47,400 nucleotides of DNA from a virus. The DNA lies in IMG/VR virus record IMGVR_UViG_3300023238_000006, positions 64,001 through 111,400 of that record. One strand, given 5' to 3'. This document shows, one piece after another, positions 41,285-47,079 of this stretch. The position numbers and the translations under genes were made by a program. The notes under the pieces are model-generated. The model was given only the letters and a program-made list of their open reading frames with translations. It made no database searches and was not told the DNA's origin. Every line of letters starts with the position of its first letter. Within the stretch, counting starts at the first letter, position 1.

Positions 41285-41494
41285 TTATAGTTTAAAGTAT
41301 CTAACCAAGCATGCCAACATAGCTACACTTGATATTAATACCGTGCCAACTATTTTCTTTTTCCATAAGCACTTAATGAAGTTCATAGTATTACATTCAC
41401 TATCATGTATCTTACAACAATCACCTATGTAAACCTTTTCACCTTTCCAGCTATATGAATACTCAAAGTATCCTGTGCAATAATCCTTAGACAT
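41285..41494 (-). CDS. Phospholipase-A2-like small membrane protein, about 69 aa
   Basis: The start is set at MSKDYCTGYF (ATG at 41494), which has GGAGG upstream, rather than at an earlier in-frame ATG inside the previous gene. IGDCCKIHDSECN resembles the phospholipase A2 active site (CCxxHDxC), with the His-Asp dyad intact though spaced one residue differently before the last Cys. A membrane helix follows (IVGTVLISSVAMLACLVRYF). It is in the lysis region, so membrane-lipid attack or a holin-like role is possible. Activity is inference. Confidence 0.55.
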   Translation of the reverse strand: MSKDYCTGYFEYSYSWKGEKVYIGDCCKIHDSECNTMNFIKCLWKKKIVGTVLISSVAMLACLVRYFKL

Positions 41495-41903
41495 AGGCAG
41501 GGACTCCTCCAAGGTAGTCAGCATCTGTTGGTACTGCCACTAATGTGATTAAATCATAGTTATAAACAATCACTGCCTTGTACCAATCTAATATCTTAGT
41601 AGCTTCTACACCAAATGTAGCATCACCTTCCCATAGCTTAACTGTAGCCATACTATCGTAATCTAGTTCTTTTAGTTTGTCTGCTATTACTTTTAGATAT
41701 AGCTGTTTGAAGTGAGCTATCGTAGCTTCTTGCGTACGCTTATCAAACTCAGCTTTTTGCTCAACTAAAGCCACATCAACAACACTCTGTGTAACTACAG
41801 CCTTATCATCAAGATAAACATAGTCATTCCCTGACATAACAACCTCTCTATTAAGTTGTTTTGTAAGTACATCTACTAATGGTGTTTGTGTTATTTCATT
41901 CAT
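41487..41903 (-). CDS. Tail-fibre-assembly-like protein, 138 aa
   Basis: A helical protein with LVEQKAEFDKRTQEATIAHF and a C-terminal part (SMATVKLWEGDATFGVEATK, ILDWYKAVIVYNYDLI) that resembles the C-terminal module in small phage fibre-associated or fibre-assembly proteins, where a Trp-containing helix precedes a Pro-rich end (VPTDADYLGGVPAYV). Family assignment is tentative. It overlaps the HNH gene start by four bases and the PLA2-like gene by eight. Confidence 0.45.
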   Translation of the reverse strand: MNEITQTPLVDVLTKQLNREVVMSGNDYVYLDDKAVVTQSVVDVALVEQKAEFDKRTQEATIAHFKQLYLKVIADKLKELDYDSMATVKLWEGDATFGVEATKILDWYKAVIVYNYDLITLVAVPTDADYLGGVPAYV

Positions 41904-42361
41904 TTGTTTACCTTATATAAAATTTCTGCATTCATTCTAGCATCTACTGCTTCTGAAAACTTAGTAAATCTACCAAGATTTATTCTCTTGCCATCTATAG
42001 ATATTGAAGCTCTCCATCTATTACTTGTAAAAGATACACCTTTACATCCTGATGTATTACTATCAAATAGTTTTCTATTGTGGTTATTTTCAGATGACGT
42101 TACAGCTCTTAGGTTATCAATAGCATTGTTATTTCTATCTCTATCTCGATGGTCTATCTCAAATAATGGAAACTCTTCATTTTCATATAACCAAGCTAGC
42201 CTGTGCGCTCCGTACTCTTTACCATCTATGCCTATAGATACATAGCCATTATTTGACCTACCAGCTACAGAGCCTATCTCGTATCCTCCAGAGTTAGTTA
42301 GTCTTGTAAACTCTCCTGACGCTTTATTGTATGAATACATTTCTTTTAATTTTGCTAACAT
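41900..42361 (-). CDS. HNH homing endonuclease with AP2-like DNA-binding domain
   Basis: A 153-residue free-standing HNH endonuclease. The NUMOD4/HNH-type region shows GAHRLAWLYENEEF, FEIDHRDRDRNNNAIDNLR and SSENNHNRK, giving the H-(DH)-N-N residues of the nuclease site. The C-terminal AP2-like DNA-binding domain has CKGVSFTSNRWRASISIDGK and LGRFTKFSEAVDAR. It starts where the upstream fibre-tip-like gene stops, so it abuts that gene's variable-looking 3' end. It is probably a mobile selfish gene. Confidence 0.85.
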   Translation of the reverse strand: MLAKLKEMYSYNKASGEFTRLTNSGGYEIGSVAGRSNNGYVSIGIDGKEYGAHRLAWLYENEEFPLFEIDHRDRDRNNNAIDNLRAVTSSENNHNRKLFDSNTSGCKGVSFTSNRWRASISIDGKRINLGRFTKFSEAVDARMNAEILYKVNK

Positions 42362-43860
42362 TATTGCACCTCTAAATGGTCACACGAAAATCTTGAACCA
42401 ATCAGCCAACTCGAATTCCAAACATAGTTGCCCCAATTCGAGGCACGAGAACCCGCATTGACACCATCACTACGATGCGCGCCCAATAGCACCGCTGTAG
42501 GAGAGTTGGGTGTAGAATAAATCCGACCTCTTTGGTCTGCATTATCAGTCCAAGCGAAAGCAGTAGTTCCATAACCATTCATCAAGTCTTTACCCCAAAC
42601 CCATTGAACACCCGAAGCTTGTTCTATACCAAACTTAGAAGTAAGGTTCGAGTAGTGCTCTACTTTTCCAGCAACCGTTTCATAACCATTTGTTGAAGAA
42701 GATTTACCCTCATTCACACCATAAGCAATAGTTGGAAATTCAGCATAATCAATAAGTTCTTTAGAGTGTGACTTTGCAATTTCACAAAGTTGAAACCAAG
42801 TTAATTTCCCATAAGTAAGAGTTCCATTTCCACCATAAGCTAAAGGTATTTTAGGAATAGCACGACCATAAGATGTTGCACCAGCTGCAATAGTTGCACC
42901 TGCCTTAGACGTTCCATTTGTAATGTGTTCAGAGTTAAGTAAGTAAATGTCATACCACTTAGAACCAATAAATACCATTCCCTCAGGCTCACAAACAGGT
43001 CTAAACCACTTAGTCCAAATAGAGTAAGCGTTTATACCTCGTATAAGAACCATATCCGCTTCTGTTTTGTTACCAGTTGGAGCTTCTGCTTCTGCTGTTA
43101 AACCATAATGAAAACCACCAATAGTATTCGCATCTTTAACAGTTTGAATAGCTGTCTTAGAGAAATAATAATCAGTTCCCGCAGTAGGAGTTACTAAGCT
43201 CATTAAAGTACCATCAACTGTAATAGAAGATGGACTTGTTTTTGTTGGTCTTAGGATACTGCTAGATTTGTTAGCCAAAACAAAAGCAGTAGTAGCACCT
43301 TTAGTACTATTATCGCCTAGTGCTGGAGTAGGCATTACTGGGCTTGAAGAGAAAGTCTTTACACCTGCTATTGTTTGAGTTGTTGTTAGGTTAACGAAAG
43401 CACTGTCTGTCTCAGTCTTAGTATAAGTAGTGCTCTGAGGCGCTTTTAGTGCAATATCAGCATCTTGTGCTGTATCTATAGCCAACTGTACTGCTGTAGT
43501 ATTATGATCTGCACTGCTAAATACTCCATTAGCCACTATCTCAACTATATCACCACTTGTAGCACCAACTGTTAATACTACATTAACTCCATCAGTACTT
43601 GCGAAGTTAACACCATTAACTAGCTTATATCCATTATGATGTACTACTAGTAATCCTGGTGAGTAGCTAAGAACCTTACCTAGTCTATCTGCACCTGTAA
43701 ATGTAGTCTGACTTGCTGTAGCTACATATGAGTACTCGTTCTGTATAGTACCTACACTGGACTTGAGTATCTCCCAACCTACTGCTGCTCTATACTGATA
43801 TGTTATCTCGTTTGCTATATGTGTATCACCGTCTGTTGGTGATGCTGGGAATGTAAACAT
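42361..43860 (-). CDS. Fibre-tip protein with DGR-type C-terminal domain, 499 aa
   Basis: The N-terminal part is a beta-rich, trimeric-fibre-like attachment region (MFTFPASPTDGDTHIANEIT, then TTYTKTETDSAFVNL). The C-terminal about 200 residues (FPTIAYGVNEGKSS, FGIEQASGVQWVWGKDL, PTAVLLGAHRSDG, NAGSRASNWGNYVW, IGSRFSCDHLEV) match the C-type-lectin-like fold of known DGR variable proteins. In those proteins the final 40 residues around AGSRxSNW and IGxRFxCDHL form the ligand-binding surface. It shares the TTYTKTExDS attachment segment with the VR1 protein. It lies two genes downstream of the reverse transcriptase. Confidence 0.75.
   Translation of the reverse strand: MFTFPASPTDGDTHIANEITYQYRAAVGWEILKSSVGTIQNEYSYVATASQTTFTGADRLGKVLSYSPGLLVVHHNGYKLVNGVNFASTDGVNVVLTVGATSGDIVEIVANGVFSSADHNTTAVQLAIDTAQDADIALKAPQSTTYTKTETDSAFVNLTTTQTIAGVKTFSSSPVMPTPALGDNSTKGATTAFVLANKSSSILRPTKTSPSSITVDGTLMSLVTPTAGTDYYFSKTAIQTVKDANTIGGFHYGLTAEAEAPTGNKTEADMVLIRGINAYSIWTKWFRPVCEPEGMVFIGSKWYDIYLLNSEHITNGTSKAGATIAAGATSYGRAIPKIPLAYGGNGTLTYGKLTWFQLCEIAKSHSKELIDYAEFPTIAYGVNEGKSSSTNGYETVAGKVEHYSNLTSKFGIEQASGVQWVWGKDLMNGYGTTAFAWTDNADQRGRIYSTPNSPTAVLLGAHRSDGVNAGSRASNWGNYVWNSSWLIGSRFSCDHLEVQ
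42364..42483 (-). other. Putative second variable region (VR2), no template in window
   Basis: The last about 40 codons of the 499-residue protein. Codons here (GGC GCG CAT CGT AGT GAT GGT GTC AAT GCG) are markedly G/C-richer than the AT-rich rest of the gene, the pattern left by adenine-specific mutagenesis. The protein motif AGSRASNW...IGSRF.CDHL is typical of DGR targets. I could not align it to the template at 45427-45527, so its own template would have to lie elsewhere. Confidence 0.45.
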
Positions 43861-44327
43861 TAGTTAGTTCCTATTGATTTAGTTGTTGCATATACTTGCA
43901 GCGAGGTTGCGTGTGCCTGCTTTAGTTCATCTAGCGTTACTACTACTTCACTCTTATCAGCTAATCTCCAAGTAGTGCTTACTACCCCAAGGTACTCACT
44001 CGCTAGTATGCTGTCAGCCATGTTCTGTCTAGACTCTAGGTTTGCATCAAACACTAATGTAGTTAGGTCAGCTCTTGTAACTACTACTGTTAGCTTTGTG
44101 AGTTTATCCACTATAGCAACTTTACTTTCAGCAGCCATTTGCTTAACCATCATGCTTCTAGCTACCTCAACACTAGTGTTGAAGCTACCTTCATTATACG
44201 TGTACAGTAACTCTCCATCTTCCTTAGTACTGCTTACTACGTTATAGCAGATAGTGACTACACCCCCTTTTACCACTTCACTTAGGGGCAACTCATGTGA
44301 TTGCACACCGTACTTGTATTCTACCAT
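43860..44327 (-). CDS. DUF4376-like fibre-associated protein, 155 aa
   Basis: The C-terminal about 90 residues (RADLTTLVFDANLESRQNM, ADSILASEYLGVVSTTWRLA, DKSEVVVTLDELKQAHATSL) fit DUF4376, which is common in phage tail-fibre and fibre-assembly proteins; the pattern RxNMxxxIL...TTWRLAD.S.V.VTLxEL is clear. The N-terminal 60 residues are beta-rich. It overlaps the reverse transcriptase gene by seven bases and the downstream fibre gene by one. It occupies the place where an accessory factor (Avd) may be encoded in other DGRs but does not look like Avd. Confidence 0.65.
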   Translation of the reverse strand: MVEYKYGVQSHELPLSEVVKGGVVTICYNVVSSTKEDGELLYTYNEGSFNTSVEVARSMMVKQMAAESKVAIVDKLTKLTVVVTRADLTTLVFDANLESRQNMADSILASEYLGVVSTTWRLADKSEVVVTLDELKQAHATSLQVYATTKSIGTN

Positions 44328-45319
44328 TGGTAACTCCTTAATTTATTTTTATCACTTATACTTAATGTAGCTCTGGTAATAACATCCAACCATAGCCCTC
44401 TAGCCTCTACTGCCTTCATCCATCCAAAGTAACTAGCTGCTGACTGTATGCCACGTGTAGCAGCTAGTGCCTTGAACATACTAACCTTAATGCTTTTACG
44501 AATTCTAACATATTTCTTTGTAAATACAAACCCTACAAAGTCAATACCTCTCTTAGTTATATCAAACACTTGGTAGTCTTTCTTTACAACTAGTGATATA
44601 CTTCCGAGGTAGCTCCGTACTTCGCTAAGCACTGCATGTAGATGCTGTTTACCCTTATGAATAAACACGATATCATCACAATACCTAAAGTAGTGGTTAA
44701 TCTTATACTTCTCTTTCATTAAATGGTCTAGCTCACTAAGCGCTAAGTTGCCTAGATACTGGCTGATGTAGTTACCTATTGGCAGCCCATCAATACTTTC
44801 TATTATAGTATCTAGCAACCATAAGGTATCTTTGCATTTAATCTTCTTCCTAACTACTACTTTAAGTACATCATTCTTTATAGATGGATAAAACTTCTGT
44901 ACATCTAACTTCAGGCAGTACCTAGACTCTGGATCCATTACTGCGCTATGTACCCTGTCTTTTGCCCTATGTACCCCTCTGCCTTTGATACTTTGAAATG
45001 TATCAGCTATTAAAGTCCTCTTCCAGATTGGCTCCAATACTTGCATTATAGCATGATGGATTATTCTATCAGGGAAATAAGGCAACTTGTAAATAACTCT
45101 TATTTTACCTTTATCATTCTTCTCAAATACATCGTACCCACCATTAACAAATGTCTTCTTCTCAAGCATAGCCTGTATCATGCCACAGTACTTGTCCAGA
45201 TCATCATCAACCATTTTAACTTCTGTGTAGTGTGCTTTGCCCTTTCTAGCATTCTTGTGTGCTAGCTTTATATTATCTATATCGTGTATCTTTTCGAAGA
45301 GGTATCCATACCGTTTCAT
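44321..45319 (-). CDS. Diversity-generating retroelement reverse transcriptase
   Basis: A 332-residue group-II-intron-like reverse transcriptase of the DGR type. It copies the template RNA with adenine misreading. Motifs: KLDVQKFYPSI at about 137-147 (first catalytic Asp), GLPIGNYISQYLGNLALS at about 178-195 (the IGxxxSQ box typical of DGR RTs), YCDDIVFI with the YxDD catalytic pair at about 213-216, and GIDFVGFVF at about 258-266. There is no maturase, integrase or RNase H domain. It is compact, as usual for DGR enzymes. The start follows AAAGGAACAAG. The template repeat lies just upstream, in the usual target-template-RT order. Confidence 0.93.
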   Translation of the reverse strand: MKRYGYLFEKIHDIDNIKLAHKNARKGKAHYTEVKMVDDDLDKYCGMIQAMLEKKTFVNGGYDVFEKNDKGKIRVIYKLPYFPDRIIHHAIMQVLEPIWKRTLIADTFQSIKGRGVHRAKDRVHSAVMDPESRYCLKLDVQKFYPSIKNDVLKVVVRKKIKCKDTLWLLDTIIESIDGLPIGNYISQYLGNLALSELDHLMKEKYKINHYFRYCDDIVFIHKGKQHLHAVLSEVRSYLGSISLVVKKDYQVFDITKRGIDFVGFVFTKKYVRIRKSIKVSMFKALAATRGIQSAASYFGWMKAVEARGLWLDVITRATLSISDKNKLRSYQW

Positions 45320-45426
45320 ATCTTGTTCCTTTGAGCGTTCGAGAATTAACCTACCAGCACAATTTTGTTACATTATTTTTCACAACTGTTGGTGTGGGCA
45401 AGAAACTCGCTATTTGTTTCTTCAAG

Positions 45427-45527
45427 ATTTCTGGAGCTGACATTCACATTAGATAAAGCTGAATCATTATTCACATTCAGATTCAGTGGTCTAGTATTCA
45501 AACCATTATTCGAATTACTACCTACCA
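45427..45527 (-). repeat. DGR template repeat (TR)
   Basis: A 101-base sequence in the 281-base gap between the VR1 gene and the RT, aligned without gaps to 45610-45710 (offset 183). Read in the VR1 frame on the - strand it encodes a run with ten AAT Asn codons (for example NLNVNND, SNVNV), the hallmark of templates designed for adenine mutagenesis. By hand count 26 of its 34 coding-strand adenines differ in VR1, against one of 67 other positions. The exact borders are uncertain by a few bases; a weak continuation with a one-base gap may extend it to about 45418. Confidence 0.93.
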
Positions 45528-45561
45528 GAGTATGCTCTTCTCGCCCAAGTACTTTATTTAG

Positions 45562-45579
45562 CCTCGTGAACCTACGAGG
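45562..45579 (-). other. Hairpin between VR1 and TR
   Basis: A perfect 6-bp stem CCTCGT/ACGAGG with a six-base loop, about 21 bases past the VR1 gene's stop codon. In the Bordetella phage DGR a short inverted repeat just downstream of VR helps target recognition. This hairpin is in the equivalent place. A transcription terminator is the alternative; there is no T-run after it. Confidence 0.5.
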
Positions 45580-45600
45580 TGTAAATTGCTAATTATACCG

Positions 45601-47079
45601 TCAACAAGAAGGTCCGGAGCCGACAGCCACAGTAGATACAGCCGAATCACTACCCACAGCCAGACTCAGCGGCCCAGCACCCAAACCAGTAGCCGAAGTA
45701 CCACCCACCACAGCAATTCTATTACCAACTGCTTGATAGTAATAATCCGTAGTACCTACAGCACTTGTACCTCCTGTTACATCAGTAGGAAAGAATCCCT
45801 TACTACTATTAGATAACTTTCTAGTATACCCATTAGCTGCGCCCATTGTTACACCAGCACTTACGTAATCACCTGTAAACACATCACTAGCAAATGTTGC
45901 CGGATTCTGACTAACAAATGGTACACGCTCCTGTATATTAATTCCATCAATAAACCCCCATATATTCCCAAAGAAGTTTTCACACCCTCTGTAGCTCATA
46001 AATGACAAGTCAGCGGATGCAGTATCAGCACTGCCAGCATATGTATAATTACCAGTCTTGTTTCCTAAGTTATTACTAAGTCCATTGATACCAATTAAAC
46101 TGCCACCTACCCACGCACCTCCAGTCAATGCAGTTCTGCCTTGCCCAAGTGCACTTTGTATATTCATCGTACCATACTCTATTATACATAACAACGTAAG
46201 CGCCTCATACAGCAGCCAATCTATCTGGTGCCATCCAGTGCCATTAGCCGCAGCTTCTGTCCTACCAGTAGCTATGGTAAATGACACACTAGGGTAAGTT
46301 CCACTTACACTCAGGAGCTTACCACCAGACCTAGTACCTTTGTATGCTGGGAAGTACCTAAAGTCTTTCTCTACTCCACCAATTACAAATGCAGGGTCAA
46401 GTATATACCCAGTCTCTGCTGTCAAACTAATACTATGCTCATGCACAACTCCAACAGCAGTATTATAGCTATACTTTCTGTAGAACTTTGGTATCTCTAC
46501 CATTACATTACCATCAGCACCTGTCAGTATAGAGGGTGTACCATCAGCCTTCTTGGTTGAATCAAGTGGGTCTAAGTAGTAGTTTACACTTCTATCAGCG
46601 TTTAGTACACATCTACGTATAAGTGATTGAATTGCAGTATACCCACCAGTGCCAGTTCTCTTATAGGTATCATTAGTTTCATCCCAGTTTAACCCATATG
46701 AGCCAGTATAAAAATCGCTACCTAGTTTTATAGCTGTGTTAACGTAAGTCTCTGATGCCAGCCCAAGTACGGCAGCAGCTACATTACTATCACTCTCTGT
46801 CTTAGTATAAGTAGTACTCTGGGTAGCCTTCAAAGCTAAAGCAGTATCCACTTCACCCTCACTATACATCTTCTTAGTAGTAGTACCAGCAGTTGGTACT
46901 TCTGCGTACACTCCACCAGTTACTACCATCTCTCTAGACGTATCAGTGTTTAACCACTTATCACCATCAAATAGCTTAGTAATGTCTGGCTTGTTAGCCT
47001 CAGTAGTTATTAAGTACTGTCCTTTTGTCTTAGCTATCTTCTCTGCTTTTAACGCTGCACCTAGTGAAATTATATCCAT
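45601..47079 (-). CDS. DGR target: fibre-tip protein with variable C-terminus, 492 aa
   Basis: The DGR-diversified protein, presumably the receptor-binding tip. The N-terminal region has fibre-like TTYTKTESDSNVAAAVLGL, also found in the second target-like gene. The C-terminal about 300 residues have a C-type-lectin/FGE-like fold: GTGWHQIDWLLYEALTLLCI, MSYRGCENFFGNIWGFIDGI, and KGFFPTDVTGGTSA. The final residues, about 457-490, are the variable region. In the present copy they are built from small residues (Gly, Ala, Ser, Thr, Val) where the template has Asn. The TGA stop lies at 45601-45603. The protein ends GSGPSC, three codons past the aligned VR. Confidence 0.85.
   Translation of the reverse strand: MDIISLGAALKAEKIAKTKGQYLITTEANKPDITKLFDGDKWLNTDTSREMVVTGGVYAEVPTAGTTTKKMYSEGEVDTALALKATQSTTYTKTESDSNVAAAVLGLASETYVNTAIKLGSDFYTGSYGLNWDETNDTYKRTGTGGYTAIQSLIRRCVLNADRSVNYYLDPLDSTKKADGTPSILTGADGNVMVEIPKFYRKYSYNTAVGVVHEHSISLTAETGYILDPAFVIGGVEKDFRYFPAYKGTRSGGKLLSVSGTYPSVSFTIATGRTEAAANGTGWHQIDWLLYEALTLLCIIEYGTMNIQSALGQGRTALTGGAWVGGSLIGINGLSNNLGNKTGNYTYAGSADTASADLSFMSYRGCENFFGNIWGFIDGINIQERVPFVSQNPATFASDVFTGDYVSAGVTMGAANGYTRKLSNSSKGFFPTDVTGGTSAVGTTDYYYQAVGNRIAVVGGTSATGLGAGPLSLAVGSDSAVSTVAVGSGPSC
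45610..45710 (-). other. DGR variable region (VR1)
   Basis: The mutagenised copy of the template. Against TR, 27 of 101 positions differ, and 26 of them are template adenines (coding strand) replaced by G (18) or C (8), none by T. The one exception is T to G at 45639 (Leu to Val). All ten TR Asn codons have become Thr, Ala, Gly or Ser. This is direct sequence evidence of past DGR activity. Confidence 0.93.

Follow-up and report, generated by a model that had tools for sequence, protein, structure and literature searches.

The window analysed here, a stretch of 47,400 nucleotides, comprises positions 64001-111400 of a 111,400-bp virus record (IMG/VR IMGVR_UViG_3300023238_000006) and carries on one strand the parts of a diversity-generating retroelement (DGR) together with a second tail-tip gene, T2 (Table 1). 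The initial annotation had described a target gene, variable repeat (VR), template repeat (TR) and reverse transcriptase (RT) in the order target-VR-TR-RT, and all four are present in that order and intact in sequence; the structured spacer RNA, the lack of avd and the neighbouring T2, all described below, were not part of that annotation. Its label of the phage as 'podovirus-like' is a fair one, the portal protein belonging to the SU10 portal family (6.7e-98) and fitting an SU10/Kuravirus-type podovirus family, with 35-37% identity to portals from enterobacterial and Pseudomonas phages of 70-77 kb. A host search of bacterial genomes using the major head protein (major capsid) returned no match, and a search of the available viral contigs with a degenerate TR/VR pattern returned no near copies of the phage, of which one genome was found.

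Table 1. Features of the region, numbered by position within the window.
Feature	Position	Strand	Evidence
Small gene, homologue of the post-RT gene in L129	41487..41903	(-)	BLASTP
HNH endonuclease gene, between T2 and 41487-41903	41900..42361	(-)	HNH_3 1.2e-13, phrog_99 6.5e-57
T2, Mtd homologue, putative orphaned DGR target	42361..43860	(-)	phmmer to Mtd 1yu4
DUF4376-like gene, overlaps RT end	43860..44327	(-)	Pfam 2e-4, below cut-off
DGR reverse transcriptase, 332 aa	44321..45319	(-)	IGNYISQ and YCDD motifs, RVT_1, phrog_1423, 8ub7, tree
P0 3' strand, CAAGAU	45320..45325	(-)	ends one base before RT start codon
P2/P3: stem, RGUA/GAA internal loop, capped hairpin	45333..45360	(-)	covariation counts; RT-17-like alignment
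P1 hairpin, spacer RNA, CACACCAACAGUUGUG	45381..45396	(-)	covariation counts, covariance model
P0 5' strand, AUCUUG, TR 3' end	45423..45428	(-)	complementary to 45320-45325
TR, template repeat	45427..45527	(-)	11 AAT Asn codons in target frame; TR/VR alignment
T1, DGR target, tail protein, 492 aa	45601..47079	(-)	phrog_5302; TaqVP-related C-terminal variable domain
VR, variable repeat, 3' end of T1	45610..45710	(-)	101-base TR alignment

The template and variable repeats

The 101-base alignment of TR and VR needs no gaps and contains 27 mismatches, and re-alignment reproduced the initial annotation, coordinates included, in that the mismatches were concentrated on adenines (26/27, or 96%) instead of being spread over all bases. 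DGRs are recognised by at least 75% of mismatches lying at TR adenines (PMC8144416), a value that this pair exceeds. Adenines account for 34 of the 101 TR bases, giving a binomial chance of 9.3e-12 for at least 26 of 27 differences falling on them. From TR to VR the changes comprised 18 A->G, eight A->C and no A->T, with non-adenine divergence confined to a single T->G. In the target frame the template holds 11 Asn codons, all AAT, and not the ten counted initially, whilst the claim that every one of them is altered held: in VR they become T, A, T, G, S, A, G, S, T, A and P, and across all codons there are 17 amino acid changes and three silent ones. VR forms the final 33 codons of T1 before GPSC-stop, and the match with TR stops abruptly on both sides, the homology ending in GTC-GCTCC-GA with no invariant GC-rich block (IMH/IMH*) beyond. 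No second copy of TR or VR was found in the 111,400-bp record.

It is unusual, if not without parallel, for every one of the 11 substituted residues to be small and for A->T to be missing; locus L075, among the 64 TR/VR pairs compared, likewise shows no A->T. A new misincorporation bias was considered as an explanation for this absence and rejected, its chance of about 0.001 per locus being unremarkable among 64 pairs. In BPP-1 a sequence-context bias at the AAU codon favours misincorporation of C, and hence A->G (PMC12875486), and the lack of A->T in the window VR is in keeping with this bias.

A separate pattern concerns TR adenines that precede G. With about 60 loci pooled, approximately 87% of these positions have G in VR (92% are changed, and 95% of the changes are to G), and such changes at the ends of TR often give Ser to Gly at fixed positions. 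This could reflect bias, selection or unreplaced flanks.

Target, reverse transcriptase and spacer RNA

T1 matched phrog_5302 (E=5.7e-74), and a profile of 41 T1 relatives matched 5vf4 (1.1e-9). A fold search with the AF2 model of T1 (pLDDT about 78-98 for residues 121-492) against the PDB returned the three chains of TaqVP (7.8e-11 to 1.2e-9, TM 0.36-0.48) and nothing else below 0.001; TaqVP, itself the variable protein of a DGR, adopts a C-type lectin fold (PMC6328139). By both fold and profile T1 is like Thermus aquaticus TaqVP (5VF4), although the two are only about 15-16% identical and T1, unlike TaqVP, has an extra N-terminal part, poorly modelled and presumably for attachment to the tail. 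As is typical of DGR targets, VR lies C-terminally inside T1, which has a lectin-type fold through its relation to TaqVP.

The RT has the DGR-type motif IGNxxSQ, not QGxxxSP, and its reading frame is open, with both the catalytic YCDD and the SQ motif present. Profile matches were to RVT_1 (1.3e-17) and phrog_1423 (5.9e-95), whilst the best PDB match was 8ub7 (2e-27), for which the table entry reads 'Reverse transcriptase' and which is part of the set 8ub7-8ubf that we take to be Bordetella BPP-1 RT complexes. In a tree of 48 RTs the window RT falls among phage DGR RTs and so inside the DGR clade, in agreement with the initial annotation; its sister group (97/94) is made up of BPP-1 bRT with two avd-type RTs, and the three group II intron RTs lie outside the DGR RTs (100/100), at a join where long branches meet. 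Neither the window phage's own record, possibly incomplete, nor 11 other records yielded avd/bAvd (PF22296) in a search whose positive control, BPP-1, matched at 2.2e-37.

A structured RNA lies between TR and RT, as is characteristic of DGRs. Across 37 aligned spacers P1 and P2/P3 showed strong covariation: 88.3% of cells were paired versus 67.5 ± 1.2 in shuffled alignments, and the covariation score was 0.662 compared with 0.258 when shuffled and at most 0.153 when slid. The resulting covariance model matched the window at 45326-45395 with 42.2 bits, the window having been in the training alignment. Outside the training set it matched the crAss-like phages cr60_1 and LMMB, Psychrobacillus phage Perkons, S-EIV1, Lactobacillus phage LBR48 and an archaeal virus (vir215, 0.0096), whilst BPP-1 gave no match.

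A first Rfam search using the window alone found no match. Aligned with RT-17 (RF03020), the window spacer RNA scores 18.1 bits over 45323-45399 where the cut-off is 40.4, and two of the pairs in its P2 are non-standard; in contrast, the spacer RNAs of several relatives (L047, L099, L011, L060 and L105) score above this cut-off. Because of these relatives we file the window RNA, whose fold resembles RT-17, as RT-17-like. That the spacer RNA might be a new RNA family was rejected, since strong relatives match Rfam RT-17, RT-14 and RT-18. A search of the window region for the Phage_DGR RNA (RF03022) gave no hits up to an E-value of 10; this RNA is instead carried by the avd-type DGRs, namely those of BPP-1, L129 and L131. 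More widely, this ties RT-17-like Rfam RNAs to DGRs, on evidence from bacterial as well as archaeal phages.

The 3' end of TR is complementary to bases that lie just ahead of the RT start codon (P0). This complementarity scored 6.62 versus 4.78 ± 0.22 for permuted partners in 30 representatives, and across loci matched partners exceeded permuted ones with z=8.3-9.8, whilst the region 5' of P1 gave no signal in the same pairing test. The VR 3' end, used as a control, also pairs above chance, as expected from the sequence that it shares with TR, and so does not discriminate. In most loci 0-18 bases separate the P0 3' strand from the RT start codon that follows it.

In BPP-1 the folded spacer brings in bRT-Avd, and the cDNA is primed from an adenine inside this structure (PMC12875486). 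By analogy, P0 may be the counterpart of this priming structure, and the P0/P1/P2/P3 RNA offers a concrete, testable model of how cDNA could start without Avd. A broader proposal, which we put forward tentatively and hold to be rather doubtful, is that in avd-less DGRs the RT-17-like RNA with P0 would anchor the RT and position the start of the cDNA, taking the role that RNA plus Avd has in BPP-1, and that folding of the template would also keep the same RNA from being translated into RT. Such a switch between template and messenger is suggested because the P0 3' strand abuts the RT start codon.

Relatives, mechanism and activity

The same target-VR-TR-RT cassette with adenine-biased TR/VR pairs occurs in about 60 IMG/VR loci, with TR in the same relative place. 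The closest, L029 (IMG/VR 3300038682_000023; target 62%, RT 55%), has the same cassette as the window but carries two targets with VR and one TR. In L029, L074 and L005 alike, two targets, each with its VR, appear to be served by a single TR. The DGR of crAssphage LMMB also shares the order target-VR-TR-RT, the lack of avd and a tail protein as target (PMC7290462). LMMB (L116) has an RT-17-like spacer RNA matched by the same covariance model, and differs in belonging to the Crassvirales, in an RT about 40% identical and in a different target. BPP-1 and the window phage have in common adenine-directed copying from TR to VR onto a C-terminal lectin-fold tip, and the 8ub7 set contains the best PDB match of the window RT. 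They differ in that BPP-1 has avd and the Phage_DGR RNA, whereas the search for the window phage yielded no avd and its RNA is RT-17-like; moreover, T1 groups with TaqVP and not with BPP-1 Mtd, which is instead homologous to T2. It is sound to regard the element as an ordinary, well-preserved DGR in a new phage, the DGR itself lying in an avd-less clade and adding one more phage to the tens of thousands known. The suggestion in the initial annotation that target and TR may be new is right for the sequences of T1 and TR and for these only, their families being already known.

By what is established for DGRs in general, an RNA transcribed from TR and spacer would fold through P1 and P2/P3 on the RT, the 3' end of TR would pair with the bases just ahead of the RT start codon, and the P0 duplex would start the cDNA. 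Misreading of template adenines by the RT would then yield a cDNA that replaces VR. In this way the tail-tip protein T1 would have its exposed C-terminal face rewritten, which would alter the receptor range of the phage. Overall, we consider it very probable that 44321-47079 is a complete avd-less phage DGR, in an explanation that takes in both this mechanism and the history of T2 given below. Points that weigh against it are the single genome, the Gly where relatives have a conserved Arg near the VR C-terminus, the lack of an invariant GC-rich IMH where the repeats diverge, the uniformly small substituted residues with no A->T, and an RNA that scores under the RT-17 cut-off.

The initial annotation had further concluded that the element has been active. 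Past activity can be inferred from the window pair, whilst it is near-identical relatives that show repeated replacement of VR directly, and on sequence grounds the comparison of VRs in L030-L039 probably provides the best evidence of DGR activity. Six of these loci (L031, L032 and L036-L039) retain TR and RT. Four types of VR occur among them, distinguished at adenine positions of TR, and L036-L038 are identical. In one branch of this phage lineage, the closely related L030, L033, L034 and L035, TR and RT have been deleted, and these contigs have one common VR. VR is fixed where the machinery is gone, a pattern to which shared sampling, ancestry or site could contribute. The cultured Synechococcus phage S-EIV1 (L123, KJ410740.1, 2191-4301), whose record annotates hypothetical proteins only, has kept target, VR, TR and spacer RNA, and its RT ends after about 27 codons.

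These losses bear on whether the window cassette might itself be decaying or silent, its VR last rewritten long ago and now fixed, which we judge unlikely. Besides the deletion of TR and RT in relatives and the truncated RT of S-EIV1, such a reading could draw on the Arg conserved near the VR C-terminus of relatives, which is Gly in the window phage, and on the uniformly small substituted residues with no A->T. However, the RT is open and retains the catalytic YCDD and the SQ motif, TR, VR and spacer RNA are intact, the one non-adenine difference between TR and VR argues for recent copying, and VRs poor in A->T are also found in L075 and L007, both of which have the cassette. That the two repeats are ordinary paralogous repeats and no DGR at all is a general possibility to which we attach next to no credence, being already refuted by the adenine bias of the differences (26 of 27, P ~ 9e-12), and opposed also by the adjacent RT in the DGR clade and by the recurrence of the pattern in about 60 loci. 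A complete avd-less DGR is the reading that we prefer to both.

T2, a second tail-tip gene

The most distinctive feature of the region is the orphaned second target, T2, which lies three genes along from T1 and which phmmer matched to Mtd (1yu4) at 1.1e-38 over residues 225-497, i.e. the lectin-fold part and variable region, with Pfam mtd_2nd just below cut-off. An AF2 model of T2 was poor (pLDDT 38) and was discarded. In the T2 relatives L129, L130 and L131 a VR occupies the same place, with a TR some 500 bases further along and an RT; in L129 and L131 bAvd lies between VR and TR (9.6e-33 and 4.6e-36). No TR for T2 was found in the whole 111-kb record, and the HNH gene occupies the position that avd, TR and RT have in L129. 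The small gene on the far side of the HNH gene is homologous to the L129 post-RT gene (43% over 63 aa, E=7e-15) and so marks the synteny of the lost cassette. We read this arrangement as T2 having once been served by an avd-type DGR whose cassette was apparently lost or replaced, the HNH gene now standing in its place, so that T2 would be fixed unless a DGR elsewhere acts on it.

Diversification of T2 in trans, by a DGR carried on a different replicon or within a prophage of the host, would suit a full Mtd-like target with diversified relatives, and the virus record may be incomplete; it nevertheless seems improbable, given the HNH gene in the avd-TR-RT place and the mild enrichment of T2 differences at adenines of the relatives' TRs (for example 12/38 with the L129 TR and 17/39 with that of L131), which is consistent with old divergence. 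Under the favoured history of a lost cassette, T1 and T2 would represent one phage lineage losing one diversifying cassette whilst keeping another. As for the DUF4376-like gene that overlaps the end of the RT, a DUF4376 gene is also annotated after the RT in Bacteroides phage BX-TP1.
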